From: Floccularia luteovirens
Taxonomy: Eukaryota; Basidiomycota; Agaricomycetes; Agaricales; Squamanitaceae
Direction of reading: 5' to 3'
DNA: 64,000 nucleotides
Assembly (NCBI GenBank): GCA_009739215.1
Contig: VSJF01000002.1
Location: forward strand, 1 to 64,000
Shown here: piece after piece, positions 5,016 through 37,717 of the stretch
Layout: every line of letters begins with the position of its first letter
How positions within the stretch are numbered: the stretch's first letter is position 1
Program-made: the position numbers and the translations under genes
The notes under the pieces: generated by a model
Database searches by the model: none
Told to the model about the DNA's origin: nothing
Seen by the model: only the letters and a program-made list of their open reading frames with translations

Positions 5016-5525
5016 AGTGGGCTTTTCCTAGTCCCTTGAAGTGTTCGAATGCCTCTTATACACAAATACACGTGTTGGAGCTTATGATCTAGCCTTGCTA
5101 TTCAATTTGCCTCGTTGAGCTCCCGCAGCGTCTTCCGCTGCTTCACAGAAATCACATCACGAAGAATGGAAGTATATATGCGCCACTCACAGACTATTCG
5201 AGAAATGTGAGGCCTAGAGTATGTTATAAGTTTAAGCCAAGTCAGCAGATGATGTATTCTGTGTGAAAGAAGTACTGAATATCCTCCCGTGACTGGCCAG
5301 TCGCATCCATATGCTGTTGTTATGGTGATGGAAGCACAACAGGTTTTGAACTCGTCCTCTCACAAGGCGTTTCTGCACTTATGATTCGTTTTTTCTATTC
5401 ACAATCAGAGTTTCAGTTGGGTGACTGTTGTATAGAAGCTACCCCGTGGATTAGGTGTGCGGAGAAAGTTCAGAAAAAAAGCGACACATAAAAGCAACTA
5501 CAGACCAGGAACAGGATTATGCCGT
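5016..5525. other. Intergenic region between CCCH gene and dead laccase
   Basis: Upstream region of the CCCH gene (-) and downstream region of the laccase pseudogene (-). No gene is seen. The right end near 5500-5525 resembles the laccase 3' intron and final exon but no intact terminal exon remains. Confidence 0.45.
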
Positions 5526-7240
5526 CATATACTATCGAAATCGTCAGCAAAGAAAACAGTCATACCACTGTTAAAAGAGAAGGAGTAGGTAAAAACTTGA
5601 CCAAATACAGGATCCGATATGACCCACAATTCCAGGTGGAAGTCCATGCGGCTGGTGTGCATTTTTGAGTATGCAGTGAGCAGTGATGACGAAATAAACT
5701 TACCAGTGCATGAACCAAGGTTCTGAATTGTCTGTGATAAACCTAATCGTCACGTTGCTTTCGGGGCCACCATTGTTTACTACGTCTCGCCTTACTGGAT
5801 CGATGTAATTATTTTCATAATCATTTCCCGCACTTTGGATCACACTAAATGAATGCTACGAACAATGTAAATTTCTTCGGAACGAACGAAAATATATAGA
5901 ACACTTACGCCGTGTAGGTGGAAGGGGTGCAGGGCCACTCCACAAGCTTGTCATCCCTACTCTACGTACCGGACTCGAAGTAATGAATGAAACTTCTATA
6001 ACCTCGTTCGGAGGAAGTACATATAATGAACCAGAAGGAATAAGATCTTGCGCAGCTTTTGCACCGCTCAGTGTTTGTAGGAGGACAGGAACAGGTGACG
6101 GGAGGTATGCAGCGCCATTGATCAAAAAGAGGCGATTGATGAAATCAACTGTTACTTCCAATTGAATATTGACATCCGCGCCACCGGAATATGGTTCGCC
6201 AGGAGCTCGAGGATTGTCAAGGGGGGGAAGGTCTGTTTTCTGTTTCTTTGAGTACCCTTCCTCCCTTCTCCGGTGGTTCACTGGTAGTATCACTGAGTGT
6301 CACCCCTCGTATCTAAGTATCGCCAAATTCGAATTATCTCCGTCTGCTTCAATTATGGTCATACTATGGCCGTCAATGGAGAATGTATATGATGGTTCGC
6401 ATGACATTGCTATGAGCCTGAAGCGATATCTCTTCCCAAACTGAACATACGATTGATAAATCTACCTTTGGCCGACCAGGATAGCGACCTTTACCATTGA
6501 TAGGAGTCGAATCTATCTCTGGGGAAATACCCACATGTGAAAATGGCACATGATACCTAGATAAGGTTTCCATAACTATCGATTGGACTGATAGTTTAAT
6601 ACATGCTGTTCTCCAAGGGTTATAACAGTCGTTTCTAAAAAATATTTAGTCAACTCGTCGGACATGGGGTGAGCTTCCTCTAACCATCGTCAACTATAAG
6701 CAAACGGATAGTTTAACATCAAGACCGTAGCACCTACCATCATAGAGGACCTTGTAAGGGTCCTCAGGACCGTAAATGACAAGGGGCCCCCTTAGACCAT
6801 CACAGTGTTGTGTACCATAAGACATAAGTTCGTAACTAAATAATATTAACACAGTGTTGAACGAGATGGAAAAGTGTAAGTACTTTACTTACTATGCTTG
6901 TACTATTCAACATCGTATCATTTATCAGCAACTTTGATTTTGAAGTCGTCGCCTTTGCGATTTGCATCAAGTCATGTTATATTCTGTCTGATCGGGGATC
7001 ATTACATAGATGAAAGGCTACCTTTTGCGCCGTTATCAATGAACCGGGAAACATGTCCTCGACTACAATCGTTCTACATTTTGTTGCTTAGTTCCCATGC
7101 AGGGTGATTTTTACACAAAAGCTCACAAGCGACTCATTCCATCAGGAGCTGTAACACTCAAAGTAGTACCTTTTACGTTGAATGGAGTACTACCAGCAGT
7201 AATTGTGCACAGACCCAGACTACAGAAGACAAGTAGTCCA
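5526..7240 (-). pseudogene. Laccase pseudogene A
   Basis: A laccase (multicopper oxidase) closest to laccase B, with the same intron positions but many lesions. In transcription order: the signal-peptide exon (about 7233-7140, STPFNVKGTTLSV) has no in-frame ATG; exon 3 (about 6957-6893) has a small deletion that shifts frame before DTMLNSTSI; the exon that should carry HWHG and HSH is absent, and the intron after exon 3 leads straight into [13 protein letters not shown] (about 6836-6765); a shift occurs near 6455 after KVDLSIV; and an internal deletion joins EADGDN directly to SNLAILRY (about 6330), removing about 50 codons plus an intron. A short duplication near 6230 restores frame before DLPPLDNP. 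The L3 exon still reads HPFHLHG and the following exon (HSFSVIQSAGNDYEN) is clean, but L4 is scrambled (DFHLE without HCH). Not functional. Confidence 0.9.
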
Positions 7241-7615
7241 TAATTTAGACTAGGCGTAAGAGATGTTAGTGGAGTGATACACACGATGAAAACCGAACAC
7301 CAATATATATTATGTAAGTACCAAAATATAATTTTATGGTATCTGCATGTTGTCGGCCGGCAAGGCAGTCAGCATTCATATTCATTCTCCGAAAACCACA
7401 TCAATCAACATTATTAAATAACGACGTGCTCACTTATGTAATTTACTATTAATAGCACATTGCACAAAATGAACGTTGACATTGACCATTCCGTCATAAC
7501 CAGTCGACAGAACAGTTTTGTTTGATTATTTGGTCATCGATCGTCGATCATCCTGCACTTACTGCAGAGCACAAGCCATGGCAAGTCGTTTGTTCCACTT
7601 TAATCTTGCTCCATA
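7241..7615. other. Divergent spacer between laccase pseudogene A and ADH
   Basis: Contains the upstream region of the dead laccase (-) and the promoter side of the alcohol dehydrogenase gene (+). No other gene is seen. Confidence 0.45.
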
Positions 7616-11424: not shown

Positions 11425-13783
11425 CTAGTTGGGTGTTTGTGTAGGGGTGACACGACGCACGCTGGTAAGACTCGCAGGGAGTGCGTTGAAAGTGGGGCAG
11501 AGTTCCCTCCAAGTATCTGTTAAAAAAAGCTGTGAGGAACGACAAGAAAAGAGTTGTGCGGAATGAACAGACCGGGAACGGGATTGTGTTGGTGTATTTC
11601 ATCAAAATCTTCAACGAAAGCAACAGCCAACCCACTACATGTTGTGAATGATTATTACTGTTTAATCAAAATTCAGACTCCAGACGTACGCTTCCAGATG
11701 CCAGTCAATGTGACTGACGACGCGAGAAGGGATGTTAGGCAAATCATTATCATGACTTCGTCAGGTTGGGACCCACCAATGTAGGAACCAGGGACCAGCA
11801 TTGTCAGTAGTAAACCTTATCGTGACGTTACTCCCAGCATTACCAGTGCTGACGACGTCGCGTCTTACTGGGTCGATATAATTATTCTTGGTATCGTTCC
11901 CCGCGCTTCTGATGACACTAAACGAGTGCTGGGAGTATAGAGCTTGTATGAGTATCGATGAATTAATAGAGATATGTAGGAACTGACGCCATGCAAATGG
12001 AGAGGGTGCTTGAAACGAGAAGAACAAATAGTCCAAGTTAGAACAAGGATATTGAATGTTCGTGACTGTACTTACCGGAGTTGTAATATCGTCGGCAACA
12101 ACTGAGATTTCGACAGTTTTGTTAGGGGGAAGGGTGTACAAAGAACCTGAAGGGATAAGGTCCTGCGCAGCCTTTGCTCCACTCAAAATTTGCAATAGAA
12201 CTGGAACAGTTGGGGGCATGAAGGTTGCACCATTTACCAGGAAACGACGATTTACAAAGTCGACCGATATCACAAGCTGAATATTAACGTCTGCTCCACC
12301 AGGGTAAGGCTCACCATGTGCCTGAGGATTTTCTAATGGATGTAGGTCAGTTTCTTGAAGTAGTCTTACTCCCTTTTCTTGTTGGCTGTCCGGATCAACA
12401 GGGCTAGCACCCAGATAACGGAGAATAGCCATATTTGAGTTGTCAGGAAATCCAGAAGATATGTTTCTATTGCCAGAACTGGGTAGTGCTCGAATCCAAT
12501 AGTTGTCAATGGGTTGTATAGCATGCAATACAAATGAATATCGCTGTCCTGTTCCAAACAATTTCCGATTCAACGACATATAAAAAGGTGAAGTGAATTG
12601 TACCTGGGAATATTTGCAGAGTGTCGACAATAGTAGGTCTTGTATTCTCGCCATCCGCCTCTATCACGGTCATAGGATGCTTGTCAATGGAGAACATGTA
12701 ATTCGGTTCACATGATATCGATATAAGCCTGAAACGGTATCTCTTTCCATATTGGACGTTAATAACTGCTAAATCAATTTTCGGCCCTCCAGGGTAGCGG
12801 CCAATTCCATTGATAAGGGTCGAGTCTCCCATTGGCAGAAACTTGACAGATGCAAAGGGAGAATGATACCTGTAATAGTAAGTGTAAGTAAGGTTCAGGT
12901 TAACGCAACAGAACGTACCATTCTCCAATTGTTATGACAGTCGTCTCTGGATGTGATATTACCAGGTGTGCTACAGATAGAGGGTTCCATCACTAACCGT
13001 CATCCACTGTATATGCACGTTATCAGCAAATGCTACAACTCGGTTTACTTAGCTTACCATCATAGAGAAGTTTATGAGGGTCATCAGGGTTATATACAAT
13101 AAGAGGTCCTCGGAGTCCATCACAATATTGAGTTCCTTGTACGAGCATGAGCGGAATGAAAAAGTAAAATAAAAATGTTCACAAAATTACCGTAGTGAGA
13201 ATGATACCAGAAAGTACCGGCTTGATTTGGGACGGAGATTTCGTACTGGAACTCATGGCCCGGCGAGATCGGACACTGACTAACACCGACAGGGCCATCT
13301 GCCCACGCAGATCCACTTTGGAATAAGCCGTGCCAATGCTGTGAAACGTAAAACATGAGGCAAGACAGTATTTTGGAGAGTATGGAATCTGGGAAGGCTC
13401 ACTATGCTGGTACTCCTAAGCATCGTATCATCCGTTAGGCGATTCGATACGTTGACTCTAAAAGTGTCTCCCTTTTGTGATACGTTCATTTCGCATTTTT
13501 CTCCAGGGAGGACGAGCATAGTACACCACCTTCTGTGCTGTTATTAATGGTGCGGGGTATACACTGTTTGCGAGGACGGCACTGTAAATAAGACGATGGT
13601 CAGACTAACTCGTTTAGATTAGAATAAAGTGAAGACTCTTCACGAGCGGCTGAATCCATCGGGAGCAACTACTGCATTAGATATCGTTAAGCTTGCGTCC
13701 TTGCCATCGACTTGAATTCCATTGCTACGCGCAGCAGAGAAAAGTCGGAATATTATGCATACGAAGAAGTCGAGAGTGAACAT
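11425..13783 (-). CDS. Laccase B (multicopper oxidase)
   Basis: Secreted blue copper oxidase of phenols (EC 1.10.3.2 family). Fourteen exons in transcription order: 13783-13644, 13581-13530, 13471-13403, 13338-13191, 13135-13058, 13006-12998, 12946-12919, 12869-12604, 12548-12076, 12008-11988, 11928-11777, 11713-11690, 11634-11573 and 11516-11425. They total 1614 bases, 537 residues, phases consistent throughout. The start [20 protein letters not shown] is a signal peptide. All four copper motifs are complete: HWHGLFQ, WYHSHYGTQYCDG, HPLHLHGHSFSV and [11 protein letters not shown]. The Leu in HPLHLHG replaces the usual Phe and is not a ligand. One exon is only 9 bases (12998-13006), as in laccases C and D. 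The terminus ends TQTPN. Likely active. Confidence 0.95.
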
Positions 13784-15481: not shown

Positions 15482-17827
15482 TTAATTAGCCGTAGAGGTT
15501 GGTGCAAAGGAGATGGAGGTTTCAGAAGGAGGCAAAGCGTCATATATAGGGCACAGATCCCTCCAAGCGTCTGCGGGATTGTCATCAGCTTCGGATAAGT
15601 AGATAAAATGTGGATCAGACTCACCTGGAACTGGGTTGACAACTGCTGGAGTATCAGCAGGGTCTTCGGCAAACACGATGGCCAATCCCCTATAATCAAA
15701 ATGTTCATATTAAAAGGAAATTTCGCAAAATGGTGCTTTAAACACGTACATTTCCAAATGCCAGTCAATATGGCTTAAAATTAAAATACAATCAAAAAAT
15801 AGACCCTAATAATCATAAATAGGAACTACACTCACCAATGGAAGAACCAAGGGCCAGTGTTGTCGGTAACAAACCTGATAGTGACAATATCCGAATCTTG
15901 ACTTGCAGCTACCACATCCCTGCGAACCGGGTTGGCATAGTTAGGCGTTGAATTACTACCAGCACTTTTGATGACGCTGAATGCATGCTATAAATCGTTT
16001 AGTTATTGATATCTCGTTATGTATTTATCCTCGACTTACGCCATGCAAATGGAATGGGTGCTGATAAAAGGAGTTGTGTTATTTCATCCGGTTTCATGCG
16101 AATTGGATTCAGAACCACTCACCGGTCCACCAGTCAGTCCTCCGGGCATATTAATTTCGATGGTCTTATTCTTCGGCAAAGTAAACACCGATCCTTCCGG
16201 AAGAAGGTCTTGCGCATTCTGAGCTCCACTAAGAATCTGCAACAGTACCGGTACATCCGGGGAAACGAATGACTTGTTATTTATAAAGAACTTGAACGCA
16301 TCTTGATCAAATTGGAATGTGAGGTTGAATGTCAAGTCCGCGCCTCCAGGGAAAGGACCACCAGGTGCAGCAGGGTTTGTCAATGGTACAAGATCAGTTT
16401 CGGATAGAAGGTTCCCGGTTGTTTGGCTCGAAGTTGGGTCTTGTGCTGGAGCTCCACTGTACCGCAAAATTGCAGAATTCAATCCTCCTGCAAAGCCTGA
16501 CGGAAGGTCTCCATTCCCACTGTTTGGCAGTGCACGAACCCAGTAGTTATCAACTGCCTGGTCAGCATTAAGCACGAAAGAATAGCGTTGACCTGTGAGC
16601 AGTTAAATATTGACTAAAGATGTTAAAATAGGACTACGATACGTACCTGCGAAAATTTGGAGGCTATCTACTGCATGAGGAGTCACGAGTTCTCCATCCA
16701 CTTCGATGATTGTCAATTGATGTCCATCAATGGAGAAGATATAGTTAGGGTCGCAAGAGATTGATATGAGCCTAAAGCGGTATCTCTTTCCTTTCTGTAC
16801 ATTGACAACTGCCAGATCTACATTGGGTCCCCCTGAATAGCGGCCTTTGCCGTTGATCAACGTAGCGTCGGCAATAGCTATGGCTTGTTGAACTACTGGT
16901 GCAGGACGGTGGTACCTACAAATATGCATGTTAGCAAAAACACTTTATATACAACAATAGTTGTATTACTCACCATTCTCCTAAAGTAATGACCGTTGAT
17001 TCTAGATTTTTTAAATGATCAGTTGTGAGCCAAAAAACGTTACCAGGAACTGACCATCATCGACTACAGAAAAATATCAACATCAATCTGTGTTAAGTTA
17101 ACTGGCAGACATCAAATCTTACCATCATATAGGGATTTGTGCGGATCATTGGGATCATAAATGATCAAAGGTCCACGAAGTCCATCACAATACTGAGTAC
17201 CTATGGGCATGAATGCTTTTGTGTCAGAGAAAGGATGAAGATAAATTTTGTATTACACACCAAAGTGAGAGTGATACCAGTATGTCCCGGCTTGATCAGC
17301 TACAGAGAACTGGTACAAAAAGGAATGGTTTGGTGCAATGGGGCACTGGCTAACGCCTTCCACTCCATCTGCCCAGTTCGTTTTGTGTTGTAATATACCG
17401 TGCCAGTGCTAGAGTAGGTTCGAACTCAGAAACTATTTTGTATGATGAAGAAAAAAACTGACAATACTGGTGCTCCGAAGCATAGTGGGGTCGTTCAGAT
17501 TGTTGACTACGTTCAAACTGAACATGTCTCCCTATAATATTGTTTCATCAGATATAAGTATCTCATTAGTCATTATATCCTTCCCACCTTGTTTCCCGTA
17601 ATCAAAGGACCTGGGAAGGCGTCATTGGCGACAACAGATCTATGGTACAATAGATGAGGTCCGACGAACGAGACTAAGTATGGAGAATAAAATACTTACG
17701 ACCGATTGTAACCATCTGGTGAGATGACCTGATTCGAGATGGTCAATGTAGAGCTTGTACCAAGCAGAACAGGTGATGCCGACGCCAAGAGGCTACCAAA
17801 TGCAAGAGCTAAAGAGACACTCCTCAT
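15482..17827 (-). CDS. Laccase C (multicopper oxidase)
   Basis: Fourteen exons in transcription order: 17827-17700, 17639-17588, 17531-17463, 17408-17261, 17200-17123, 17063-17055, 17001-16974, 16915-16647, 16592-16123, 16060-16040, 15987-15836, 15773-15750, 15689-15625 and 15570-15482. They total 1602 bases and 533 residues, the usual laccase size. The signal peptide is [19 protein letters not shown]. The copper motifs are all intact: HWHGILQ, WYHSHFGTQYCDG, HPFHLHGHAFSV and [11 protein letters not shown]. The L4 exon uses an AAG acceptor. A TATA box sits 52 bases before the ATG. The gene is about as similar to laccase D as recent paralogues are, sharing exon lengths and the last 15 residues ([11 protein letters not shown] end). 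Expected to be secreted and active on phenolic substrates such as lignin-derived or pigment precursors. Confidence 0.95.
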
Positions 17828-21250: not shown

Positions 21251-23389
21251 TTTCCATTCGGAACTTACTAGATTACCGATGTTTGGCAACAACTTCTTTT
21301 CAAAATAACCGACCATATTGTAAGCACTCCAACGGCATATCTATACTAACTGGTGATCACACAGGTTTCAGCCGCTGCTTGCATGGCGCTGTTCCTCAAC
21401 TTGTTTCAGGCAGTATTCCCCTCATATACTCAAAGCTCTACCCATGATTACTCTGATGAACGAGTCTTCGTAATCCAGCGTTAGCTGCAGGATTAATGAA
21501 TCTTTTCAGCAGTTCATATAAAAAGTTGTTTGGTAGACGTCGAAGTTCGTCCTTCTGGCCATATTCGGAATCAAACTTCCTCTCCAAAGTTTGAAACCTA
21601 CTCAATGATATCCTCACTCTTGACAGTGAAACTTTGGAGGAAGTACTTAGTGGAGAAATTGAAGTTATGCGGGACTCAAAGAGTTCGATGAAACACGGTG
21701 TGATGAGCAGCGGGTCCGGGAACATCGACTCTCGATTGTTCACTGCTCTGTGCAGGGGTTTTGGAATATTGGCTGGTCCGATAGTACGCTTGTAGATTGT
21801 TCCTTGGCACGCGGAGGTAAAAAACCAAGGCCGAAATACAATAAGACACAAACGGGCATAGCGTAAGGTAAAGGAAATGAAGATGATAGAGATGAAAAGG
21901 ATGATGAACAAGATCATTATCCGCGCAACGTAAAGGAAACACAACAAGTACGAATTTATCACCTAGTCCACCCAAACCTGTCTACTTTCACCTTAAATCC
22001 CTCCAAATCTGGTACTATGCCACACTCATATAACGCTTCGGGATCCTGTTACCACTCCCCATCTTTATTTGCTGTACTATGAACCGAGTTGATCGTTGTA
22101 CTTGATATTGAGTTGATATGAGAAACCAATGAAGTGTTTTTGCAATGGTAAGATTCATAATGATGGTCCCCCTGCTTGACGCGAGAAGCAAAGCGAATGG
22201 TCCTGTGTAGATATACATAGAAAATAATCCCCGCTACGATAGTAGAGGGTCTTGTAGCATACTAATGTTCAGTACTCAGTTTTGACAGCGTTTTCGGTTG
22301 GTCCTCCATTTCTCGACACCAAATGGTTCGGGTAGTTCGTACCGGAGGGGCCCTCTGTGTGACACATTCATGAATCATTTTCGGTCTTGTACTTCTTCGC
22401 CCCGAATCTTGGTGATCTGTTTTGACTGCTGCACATGACATATATACGTATTGGTGTCTCTTCTTCAATATTCAATCCAATTATCAGTTTCTGTAATAAT
22501 CTTTTGTAACCAATACCATATATTCTTTCATCACTGTTGGTCAGCTAACAATCATCTACTTTTCATTGCTATCTTTATTTTTTTTCAGCGAAATCACTTA
22601 TCCGAGTGGCAATTCAAGCTCAAGTGTTTATTGGAAGGTTTGTCTATCAGTGTCTTCACTTCTAAACTTCTCCGAAGTTTGTTGTCTGTCCCTCCTATCC
22701 TTAATGTACTAGTATCCTAAAAAATTTCAAACATACTGTAACTACATCTCACGTTTACATTCCGTCTGTACAAAAAAAGTAGCGGATCTTCTGTGCTCAA
22801 AGCACGGCCTTACGGTCCTTATTACCTTGTGTACTGTGAACTTCGAAGTGGTCTGTAACGGCATTTCGATCGAATTGGTTGATGATAATACTGGTCATAT
22901 GATTCAGAGCATACAATCTGCTTCCCTGGTACAGGCGAGGACGCGAAGTTAGCAAAACGAGGCAAAAGTTCACATGGAAGAATGCGCGTTGATTCGACAA
23001 GAAAAATACATACGGTGGGTTTATGCAGGCATTTAGTAAATAGACGAAATGACGGTGAGAAACCGAGATTTGGGGCGCGCATGTGACTTGCCCGTCACAT
23101 TCCCATGCTGCACTTCCAAGTAGCTTTGAGCTCAGACTAACTAAGGACTGACTTAGGATTCGTTTGAGATTCACTTCTAGCGACGCTTACCGGGTGAAAA
23201 TTGAAACGTATGAAGGCTATTCATTCAATCTGCATTGTACGGGTCCAACACCTTTTCATCCTTGTGACATTTAACAGATATTCCATTGGCTACGATCTTC
23301 AATGGCAGCCTGAGATTATTATCTTGAAATAAACAAAGTTGTTAATGTCCTAGGGATGTGGATAACGTACAATGCGATTGGAAGTTGGA
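21251..23389. other. Intergenic region of mixed duplicated blocks
   Basis: No gene supported. About 21270-21515 is a copy of the block also seen at 14090-14400 and 29205-29420 (CAGGATTAATGAATCTTTTC here). About 21555-21965 matches 10600-10970. About 23110-23265 matches 10255-10400. The last 80 bases are the conserved laccase D promoter. The interleaving suggests repeated duplication and rearrangement between laccase copies. Confidence 0.6.
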
Positions 23390-23398
23390 TATAAAAGG
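23390..23398 (+). promoter_or_regulatory. TATA box of laccase D
   Basis: TATAAAAGG, 57 bases before the ATG at 23448, in a promoter conserved with laccase C from about 23305 onward. The presence of an undamaged promoter matters for judging whether the altered laccase D is expressed. Confidence 0.75.
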
Positions 23399-23447
23399 TC
23401 TCCTGACTTGAGAAGACATACTTCATAGTATCATTATCTCCCTCATC

Positions 23448-25811
23448 ATGAGGAGTGCCTCTTTAGCTCTTGCATTTGGTAGTCTTTTGGCATCAGCATC
23501 ACCCGTTCAGCTTGGTGCAAGCTCTACCTTGACTATCACGAACAAGGTCATCTCACCAGATGGTTTCAGTCGCTCGTAAGTATTCTATCCTTTATACTTA
23601 ACCTCGTTCATCGGATCTCACATACTGTACCATAGAGCTGTTGTCGTCAACGGCATCTTCCCAGGTCCTGTGGTTACAGGAAACAAGGTCCTAAAGATAT
23701 AAAGACAATGAGATACTTATATCTGAATAACAATATCACAGGGAGACACATTCAACTTGAACGTAGTCAACAATCTGAAAGACACTACTATGCTTCGAAG
23801 CACCAGTGTCGTTAGTTTTTTTTTTTCACACCATACGCGATTTATTTCTGACTTTCCAATTTACTCTAGCACTGGCAAAGTGTATACCAAGAGAGAACGG
23901 ATTGGGCGGATGGTGTGAATGGTGTTAGCCAGTGCCCCATTTCACCAGACCATTCCTTTATGTATCAGTTCACTGTAGCTGATCAGGCCGGGACGTTCTT
24001 GTATCGCTCTCACTTCGGTGTGTAATAAAAAAATTATAACTTCATCCTTGTTCTGACACATAGTGTTTCCTGATCCTGCTTATAGGTACTCAGTATTGTG
24101 ATGGACTTCGTGGGCCTATGGTTGTTTATGATCCTAATGATCCGCAGAAGTCTTTATATGACAGTAAGATTTGCTAGTTAAATTAACATAGAATGACGTT
24201 AACATTTTCCTGTAGTTGATGATGGTCAGTTGATCTAATGATTGTTTACTTCAAAGTCAATTTCCTGACCAAATTTTCTACATAGCATCAACGGTCATTA
24301 CTTTGGCAGACTGGTGAGTAACACAACTGTAGTTGTATATAAGATGGTTTGCTAATGTGCATATTTGTAGGTACCACCTTCCTGCACCAGTAGTTCAACA
24401 AGAAGCTGTAGCTCTTGCCGACGCTACGTTGATCAACGGGAAAGGCCGCTATGAAGGAGGTCCCAATGTAGATCTGGCAGTTGTCAATGTACAGAAGGGA
24501 AAGAGATACCGCTTTAGGCTCATGTCAATCTCTTGCGATTCTAACTTCATCTTCTCCATTGATGGTCACCAATTGACAATCATCGAAGCGGACTCAGAAG
24601 CCGTCATCCCTCATACGGTGGATAGCCTCTCAATTTTTGCAGGTATGTCTCATGGTCCTCTGTTAACATCTGTAGTCAATATCTAACTGCTCACAGGTCA
24701 ACGCTATTCTTTCGTGCTTAATGCTAATCAACCAGTTAATAATTACTGGGTTCGTGCACTGCCAAGCAGTGGAAAAGGAAATCTCCCCATAAGCTTTGCA
24801 GGAGGATTGAACTCTGCAATTTTGCGGTACAGAGGAGCTCCAGTACGAGATCCAACTTCAAGCCAAACAAATGGGAGCCTTTTGTCCGAATCTGACCTTG
24901 CACCATTGACAAACCCTGCCGCACCTGGTGGTCCTTTCCCTGGAGGCGCGGACTTGACATTCAACCTCACGCTCCGATTCGATGAGCTTGCGTCTAGGTA
25001 CTTTATTGGCGACAAGTCATGGGTTCCCCCAGATGCACCAGTACTGTTGCAGATTCTAAGTGGAGCTCAGAATGCGCAGGACCTTCTTCCGGAAGGATTG
25101 GTGATAACTTTGCCAAAGAATAAAGTTATCGAAGTCAATATGCCCGGAAAATGGTTCGGTGGACCGGTAAGTGGTTTTGAATCCAATTCAGAGTGGAACC
25201 GGATGAAATGACACGAACCTTTTCATTGTAGCACCCAATGCATTTGCACGGCGTAAGTCAGGGCTGAAGAGTTCATTATCACAACGAGATATTAATAATT
25301 AAAAAAATTCTCAGCATTCATTCAGCGTCATCAAAAGTGCCGGTATTAATTCAACGGTTAACTATGCCAACCCCGTTCGCAGGGATGTAGTAGCTACAAG
25401 CACAGAATCGGATACTGTCACTATCAGGTTTGTTACCGACAATACTGGCCCGTGGTTCTTCCATTGGTGAGTGTAGCTCCTGTTTATAATTATCAAGGTC
25501 TATTTTTTGAATATATTTTAATGTTAGTAATGTCGACTGGCATTTGACAAGGTACGTTTCAAAACACCATTTTGCAACATTTCTTTTTGAAACCAACTTT
25601 TGTGTTATAGGGGATTGGGCATCGTTTTTGCCGAAGACATTACGGGTACTCCAACTGTTCCAGTTCCAAGTAAGTCTGACTGAGTCGGACCGATGTTTTA
25701 TACGCTGATGACAACCGCGCAGATTCTTGGAAGGAACTTTGTCCTATATATGACTCTTTGCCTGCTTCTGAAACGTCTATCTCCTTCGCACCAACCTCTA
25801 CGGCTAATTAA
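23448..25811 (+). CDS. Laccase D: frame-intact laccase-like protein lacking three copper-ligand histidines
   Basis: Fourteen exons: 23448-23575, 23636-23687, 23742-23810, 23870-24017, 24086-24163, 24216-24224, 24286-24313, 24371-24642, 24697-25166, 25232-25252, 25315-25466, 25528-25551, 25611-25669 and 25723-25811. They total 1599 bases and 532 residues, no stop or shift, every splice site GT-AG and in the same place as in laccase C. The signal peptide is [19 protein letters not shown]. The copper motifs are changed: L1 is HWQSVYQ instead of HWHG, L2 is LYRSHFGTQYCDG instead of WYHSH, L3 is HPMHLHG (ligands kept), and L4 is HCNVDWHL instead of HCHIDWHL. The three lost residues correspond to the ligands of one type-3 copper, while the type-1 set and the remaining type-2/3 histidines stay. 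It cannot be a normal laccase. It may be a repurposed cupredoxin or a young pseudogene. Confidence 0.93.
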
Positions 25812-36569: not shown

Positions 36570-37717
36570 GCTCTTTTATAAGCAAAACCCCCATCTCTAA
36601 TTTCAGATCTATCTCCTCCTCTTACAACCTCCCAGGAATATACTCTGCACAGTCCCCATCCCCACCACCTCAACAGCAATCCAGTGCATTTGCCAGACTT
36701 CATACCAGACTCACAGAACAAGCAGCCAAGCAACAAATAAGAGACCCTTGGGTTAGACCAGCCAAATCACCCAATACACTGCAGCAACCACCCCCGCTCC
36801 AAATAACCAATGAGCCACAAGAACACTACAAAGAAGAACAAGAAGTAGAACAACAGTTTTATGAAGAAGCTCAACAAATGCCACCACACATCACTTACAA
36901 CTCAGATGTTGAAATGTCCAGCAATGCAAAAGAAATTAATGTCAGCAGACCAATACCATTTAATGGCAAGAAAGAACATGCACAACCATTCTTACAAGAT
37001 GTCCAAATATATTTGGACATGAATGAAGAAATTTATAACAGTGATAAGAAGAAAATCTTATTCACACTTTCATTTATGAAAGAAGGAACAGCAGCTATCT
37101 ACTACTCAAACATTATAGAAACTGCCAACGGAAACTACGGAACATGGTCTCAATTTAAGAAAGCATTCCTAGAAGCATTCCAAGCACAGAATGTAGCTAT
37201 GCAAGCAAGAACTAACCTCGCCAACCTACAGATATCTGGCAATAATATTACCAAGTACATCTCAGAATTTAAAATCCTATCATCACAAGCAGGGATACAC
37301 AAAGACACATCACTCATAGATATATTCATGAGAGGATTAAATGACAAACTAGTCGAATGTTTCTACAAACTAGACAACTTCCTGACCACCATGGAACAAG
37401 TCTACAAATATGCATTCCAGTTCGCAGATAGACTATAATGAATGAAAGACTTCCTATAGTCCAGAAAGAAACTATTCGCAAGACCAAACTTATTCCCAGC
37501 AAGAACAACAGGAAGAGACCCCAATGCAATGGAAATTGACCGTATCAACATTGAGGAACCTGTCTTAGACATGGAAGAACTAGAAGAAATAAATAGAATG
37601 TCGTTCGAAGAACAGAACAATCATTTCCTAAATGGGCTATGCTTCATATGCCATCAGAAAGGACATCAATCTAAAGATTGCCCCAAAAGGAAAACCCTGA
37701 AAAGAAGAAACACCTCA
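36570..37717 (+). pseudogene. Ty3 gag (capsid and CCHC knuckle), with stops
   Basis: Capsid-like region of about 300 codons: the clean part 36878-37438 contains FNGKKEHAQPFLQDVQIYLD and a retrotrans-gag type helix block (FKKAFLEAFQAQNVAMQART, IDIFMRGLN). The frame is open upstream to about 36570 but without an ATG, so the true N-terminus is uncertain. After in-frame stops at 37436-37441 the next piece carries the zinc knuckle CFICHQKGHQSKDC (C-x2-C-x4-H-x4-C) near 37640-37682. The gene packages element RNA in the cytoplasm; this copy is inactive. Confidence 0.85.

Follow-up and report, generated by a model that had tools for sequence, protein, structure and literature searches.

A laccase-fold gene of Floccularia luteovirens in which the three histidine ligands of one type-3 copper are replaced

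Laccase gene D of Floccularia luteovirens raises the question of how a multicopper oxidase gene came to exchange exactly the three histidines holding one type-3 (T3) copper—as an enzyme remodelled at a single metal and kept in that form, or as a gene on its way to being lost. The gene lies in the window, i.e. the whole stretch of DNA analysed, which covers 64 kb at the start of a contig of 3.14 Mb in a genome of 27 Mb, and all four laccase genes of that window—the decayed A together with B, C and D—are found inside its first 26 kb (Table 1). The alignment of laccase A contains six frameshifts as well as HCRMD in the place where HCHID is expected, and the L1/L2 motif, looked for in the same alignment, was not found. 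Elsewhere in the genome there are three further laccases with canonical ligands, two of them (L001 and L005) located on one contig (C3), ~4 kb apart, and the third one (L003) on a different contig. L001 and L005 form a second recent laccase pair, with all ligands intact and a dS of 0.29 vs 0.32 for the pair C–D; being of similar age, they served as the control for the latter. The weaker multicopper oxidase matches on the contigs C17, C18 and C20 were left out of the ligand analysis, as was the distant L007, which was aligned only.

With regard to gene structure, a sequence-only reading of the locus had described D as 14 exons closing into 532 residues with no stop, and the spliced alignment agrees, revealing no frameshift either; the 13 introns are all of the GT..AG type and their positions match those of laccase C. 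The count of pseudogene signs (stops, frameshifts and lost splice sites) is zero in D, A being the copy with frameshifts. All three Pfam domains are recognised well above their cut-offs of 20–21 bits, i.e. Cu-oxidase_3 with 115, Cu-oxidase with 163 and Cu-oxidase_2 with 121 bits. The promoter match to C, also claimed in that reading, extends over ~150 bp upstream (identity of 92% in 23400–23447 and 78% in 23300–23399), the TATAAAAG box occurring upstream of C as well as D; beyond this stretch it is lost, the identity being 43% or less.

The three motif changes pointed out previously—HWHG to HWQS, YHSH to YRSH and HCHID to HCNVD—are all seen in the alignment. At codon 86 (23876–23878) D has CAA vs CAC in C, giving Gln86, at codon 129 (24005–24007) CGC vs CAC, giving Arg129, and at codon 477 (25529–25531) AAT vs CAT, giving Asn477. 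The placing of the corresponding Trametes histidines—H66, H109 and H454—on one and the same T3 copper agrees with the grouping given in the available text of two sources: in Trametes-type laccases one T3 copper is bound by H66 (via ND1), H109 and H454, and the other by H111, H400 and H452 (PMC4303304), the grouping in the laccase from Lentinus tigrinus being identical (PMC2064922). The names T3α and T3β are used here according to the ND1 definition of a review, the available part of which reserves the name T3α for the T3 copper that has a single histidine bound through ND1 (PMC10107611); in the corresponding parts of two other sources, the names α and β (PMC4203857) or (a) and (b) (PMC2064922) are swapped. 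From this definition and the grouping of H66, it follows that D is without the T3α ligands, those of T2 and T3β being kept.

The ligand string of D thus reads HQRHHHHHCNH (in the order T2, T3α, T3α, T3β, T1, T2, T3β, T3β, T1, T3α, T1); compared with the ten histidines and one cysteine required of a four-copper laccase, three of the ten histidines are replaced, all of them belonging to T3α. The T1 set, the T2 pair and the other T3 trio had been reported as kept, and this is what was found, the L3 motif HPMHLHG and the T1 ligands being intact; in addition, all five cysteines and both relay aspartates are conserved. D97 is taken here to be the equivalent of the T2 aspartate D77 of Trametes, and D479 presumably occupies the T3 Asp/Glu position. 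The codon of C476 is split by an intron, its last base being at 25528.

Table 1 Features of the laccase cluster and of gene D, with positions in the window
Feature	Position	Strand	Basis
Laccase A, decayed copy	5533..7156 (region 5100-7400)	-	Spliced alignment
Laccase B with canonical ligands and an uncertain first exon	11428..13710	-	Spliced alignment, ligand check
Laccase C, 533 aa, canonical sister of D, 14 exons as in D	15482..17827	-	Spliced alignment
Proximal promoter of D, TATAAAAG box at 23390-23397	23385..23447	+	Read from sequence
Gene D, laccase-fold, 14 exons, 532 aa, without T3α ligands	23448..25811 (stop included)	+	Spliced alignment, Pfam
Q86 and S87, in place of His (T3α, H66 in Trametes) and Gly of HWHG	23876..23881	+	Alignment, column analysis
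D97, T2 Asp equivalent, kept	23909..23911	+	Homologue alignment
L127, Y128, R129; Trp and T3α His (H109) of WYHSH replaced	23999..24007	+	Alignment, column analysis
H131, T3β ligand (H111), kept	24011..24013	+	Ligand check
Exon 10, L3 HPMHLHG, T1/T2/T3β His kept	25232..25252	+	Alignment, ligand check
H475 (T3β) with codon positions 1 and 2 of C476 (T1), kept	25462..25466	+	Alignment, ligand check
N477, in place of T3α His (H454)	25529..25531	+	Alignment, ligand check
D479 (T3 Asp/Glu equivalent), W480, H481 (T1 ligand), kept	25535..25543	+	Ligand check, homologue alignment

The ligands are canonical in C, B, L001, L005 and L003 as well as in 119 of the 120 best public homologues listed, out of 3019 full-length hits obtained by scoring the 7999 candidates that shared most words. 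The 120th homologue (P0051) exhibits a gap over L4—probably a gap of the gene model—and was counted neither way. With two further searches directed at the regions changed in D, the canonical count reached 131 of 132 homologues, including P0131 and P0132 that read HCHNIWH and have their ligands intact. An orthologue with the Q/R/N triplet was found neither in the best 120 of the 3019 hits nor in the 2 + 12 hits of the targeted searches. The homologues among the matches listed originate from Crucibulum, Cyathus, Cyclocybe and others, placing the genome among the mushroom-forming basidiomycetes, and the nearest public proteins among them are only 61–64% identical to D, indicating that the species and its close kin may be missing from the public set.

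In the protein tree of 62 rows, D is positioned inside a clade of five laccases from the same genome (support 100/100), its pairing with C being supported by 99/40, the second value of which is weak; the introns of the two genes align. Over 506 aligned columns, the proteins of D and C are 78.7% identical (NG86 dN 0.121, dS 0.315), and the nucleotide identity of the two genes amounts to 85.7% in exons and 77.0% in introns. The idea that the changes had spared 530 other codons has to be abandoned, since D differs from C at 108 of the 506 aligned residues. The protein tree sets L003 beside C and D, whereas the codon likelihood under the same model favours L001/L005 in that position (lnL −7134.5 vs −7153.6 with L003 there); the results for the D branch are similar under both topologies and in a four-gene tree. 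As judged from the sequences compared, the loss of the whole T3α trio is an event that followed the C/D split. Recent gene conversion from C as a process keeping D intact was rejected, the differences at four-fold sites (37 of 206) being spread along the gene at 0.10–0.30 per 40-residue bin, with no near-identical bin. It is also highly improbable that the Q/R/N triplet is an artefact of assembly or sequencing: although each histidine change corresponds to a single base relative to C, the changes occupy three segments of two exons and have derived bases alongside, and the divergence of D from C amounts to 14% for the exons and 23% for the introns, with the frame of D open throughout.

The distribution of the changes was evaluated over 119 alignment columns conserved at a level of at least 97% in the 120 listed homologues. 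D violates five of these columns (H86Q, G87S, W127L, H129R and H477N), each of the five being a T3α ligand or lying at most two residues from one, and the Gly and Trp neighbours altered in D are invariant in all 120 listed homologues. In the same columns, there is no violation in C, L001, L005 and L003, and B exhibits five, scattered, none of them being a copper ligand. With looser cut-offs, the violations in D, B and C number 8, 8 and 2, respectively (at least 95%; 151 columns), or 11, 12 and 3 (at least 90%; 186 columns). Some of those added in D are common to the genome's other copies in the clade (the N-terminal gap and G454S), the ones unique to D being N366G (at least 95%) and P228S, I478V and A487G (at least 90%), of which I478V adjoins a ligand. 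It should be noted that, in view of substitutions like N366G, P228S and A487G at these looser cut-offs, not all the changes in D sit at T3α.

For five violations placed at random, the probability of covering all three T3α ligands is 3.7e-5, that of striking the complete set of some three-ligand copper while sparing the remaining ligands 9.5e-5, and that of the observed neighbourhood pattern 5e-8, all of these values being post hoc. The earlier argument that random decay would not strike the ligands of only one metal is supported by these post hoc probabilities. They also bear on the rather unlikely possibility that D is a recently dying gene, in which one ligand mutation ended the activity and which has since been drifting towards the state of A, a decayed laccase in the very same cluster; neutral violations would be expected to scatter, and all five in D are at T3α. 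Neutral simulations, performed with C as a stand-in ancestor and with insertions and deletions excluded, used a D branch of 0.10–0.157 per site, i.e. half of the C–D distances from four-fold sites, introns and dS. They yielded a mean of 24–34 violations (1–99% range 14–46), and for each length none of the 1500 runs left the gene intact, so that longer neutral periods speak against a dying D by both the number of violations and the broken frames; a shorter neutral period, sufficient for five violations, would leave them scattered.

The polarised changes are more numerous in D than in C (65 vs 25; 18 ambiguous), as a dying gene would have it, but the canonical pair L001/L005 is similarly lopsided (53 vs 24; 17 ambiguous). 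The D-derived changes affect 13 of the 31 codons around L1, L2 and L4—a pocket picked after inspection of the data—compared with 52 of the 475 codons elsewhere (Fisher p 2.6e-5), the C-derived ones being 1 in the 31 pocket codons and 24 elsewhere.

Codon models with separate rates for the recent tips gave an omega for D of 0.51–0.61 over the whole gene and 0.43–0.58 outside the pocket, the non-pocket value of ~0.45 showing no difference from the ~0.4 of the other recent duplicates (p = 0.93 and p = 0.65). With a single omega for all the other recent tips, omega = 1 on D is rejected (p 0.004–0.02), but not with every tip free (p 0.21 and 0.22). The result least favourable to constraint comes from the model in which D alone differs, with an omega of 0.89 and omega = 1 fitting equally; this model was not relied on here, because old, saturated branches and recent tips are combined in its background. 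Both this estimate and the free-tip test (p 0.21) are in favour of a dying gene. The dN/dS along the D branch, proposed earlier as a check, is in line with constraint outside the pocket, the rejection of omega = 1 being dependent on the model. The violations confined to T3α, the omega outside the pocket and the neutral expectation given above jointly argue for a site-specific loss under retained constraint, and the pattern suggests an enzyme rebuilt at one metal rather than a gene falling apart. The branch-site test for positive selection on the D branch was not significant (p 0.12 and 0.13 for the two topologies), despite the enrichment in the pocket.

As far as known systems are concerned, D resembles the canonical basidiomycete laccases (Trametes, Coprinopsis and laccase C) in its fold, the T1, T2 and T3β ligands, the T2 and T3 aspartates and the cysteines, its exon structure being common to the sister gene C; it differs from them by being without the three T3α ligands and their neighbours Gly and Trp. 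From Fet3p, single T3 variants (H126Q and H483Q) are known, for which disturbing T3α, unlike T3β, reportedly leaves the O2 reaction. These are laboratory mutants in a single ligand, affecting one T3 copper each, whereas D is natural and has the whole trio gone. Fungal laccases without some T2/T3 ligands are already published, as evidenced by the available parts of the reports on Lelcc8, 9, 13 and 14 from Lentinula (PMC6947313), CuLac3 and CuLac18 from Cerrena (PMC10466755) and AaLac4, 5 and 7 from Auricularia (PMC11546694). The T1 histidines of the Lentinula proteins are, in the part available, said to be kept, as they are in D (PMC6947313). In a comparison by description, the accessible portions of these three reports name no loss of the full set for one copper and mention no test of constraint. 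Among the entries listed in a literature search outside most subscription journals, no laccase was found in which exactly one T3 copper had lost its full ligand set.

More distant multicopper oxidase relatives with missing ligands have retained roles, according to the available text of the sources: the insect MCORP, reported to have no detectable oxidase activity, is essential (PMC4203857), and the plant SKU5 is without the T1 and T3 ligands (PMC4203857, PMC10315306). They serve as precedents for a rather unlikely explanation of D as a copper-free structural pseudoenzyme, the fold of which would be kept for binding, a scaffold or a regulatory role, or only since a misfolded secreted protein costs the cell, with the ligands drifting freely. 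The ligands of D that are gone while the fold positions stay would fit such a protein, but all eight T1, T2 and T3β ligands and both relay aspartates are present, and three random losses among 11 ligands can be drawn in 165 ways, of which only 3 make up the complete set of a three-ligand copper (~0.02, post hoc). D does not fit the MCORP/SKU5 type of loss either; in these relatives, as described in the text at hand, the T1 and T3 ligands are lost and the T2 pair is kept, whereas D, a recent duplicate, has its T1, T2 and T3β ligands. An incomplete copper set, as predicted for D, is also found, in the available descriptions, in the plant LPR1, active though without T1 (PMC10315306), and in fungal laccases of the "white" kind, which contain less than the four coppers and for which activity is reported (PMC4203857); LPR1, however, misses T1 and not T3α, and that text gives no ligand sequences of the white laccases.

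The explanation preferred here, held with a confidence somewhat short of even, is that D represents a selectively retained, secreted paralogue that has lost T3α and kept the ligands of T1, T2 and T3β. In terms of function, D is most likely a secreted copper protein that would be unable to perform the normal four-electron reduction of O2, candidate functions put forward in the sequence-only reading being electron transfer, metal binding or a regulatory job. Such a protein would fold and carry fewer than four coppers, and Arg129, opposite Gln86 and Asn477, may occupy the cation hole of T3α. Provided that the coppers load, the substrate electrons would enter at T1 and travel via Cys476–His475 to T3β and T2; the four-electron reduction of O2 to water would be crippled, and D could act as a modified oxidase—with a partial, peroxide-level reduction of O2—or as an electron/phenol sink, not as a laccase.

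According to the available part of the review, T2 and T3β are oxidised in the peroxide intermediate and the T2 aspartate favours the T2/T3β edge, although calculations in which all three coppers participate are also cited there (PMC10107611); one proposed mechanism, as described in the text at hand, has the T3α copper donating an electron for the O–O cleavage. The T2/T3β edge, to which the initial two-electron step with O2 is attributed, does not include the T3α lost in D; with that edge kept and T3α gone, peroxide-level reduction is predicted to be a reasonable outcome. The most specific form of this prediction—a natural three-copper laccase with Arg replacing the T3α copper and a two-electron, H2O2-forming reaction—seems distinctly doubtful; if true, the peroxide of D could supply peroxidases or Fenton chemistry in the decay of wood and litter. 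Partial removal of copper need not destabilise multicopper oxidases, and in Fet3p the full copper set is said to add stability, both statements coming from the available text of one source (PMC5796215). The loading of T2 and T3β in D without T3α may fail.

The division of labour between the two unequal T3 coppers in the trinuclear cluster has so far been studied on proteins that were engineered or depleted of copper. D would offer the loss of exactly one T3 copper as it occurred in nature, with its canonical twin C ~6 kb away as a control, and the two together would make the labour split of the T3 coppers testable in proteins shaped by selection. The laccase counts in fungal genomes, moreover, include paralogues probably incapable of normal laccase chemistry.

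Apart from the copper ligands, the loop before L3 in D (codons 413–415; 25149–25157) reads KWF vs GLT in C, none of K, W and F ranking among the top five residues of its position in the 132 homologues. The loop is presumably near T1, and substrate handling there may differ as a consequence of this replacement. The number of N-glycosylation sequons is three in D, compared with six in C and L001, five in L003 and B, and four in L005; together with the KWF loop, the fewer sequons point to a shift beyond the copper site alone. Downstream of D by ~11 kb, an open reading frame on the forward strand (36878–37438) with the Retrotrans_gag and Ty3_capsid domains is probably a part of a Ty3-like element, and is followed by several long open reading frames up to ~42.8 kb.
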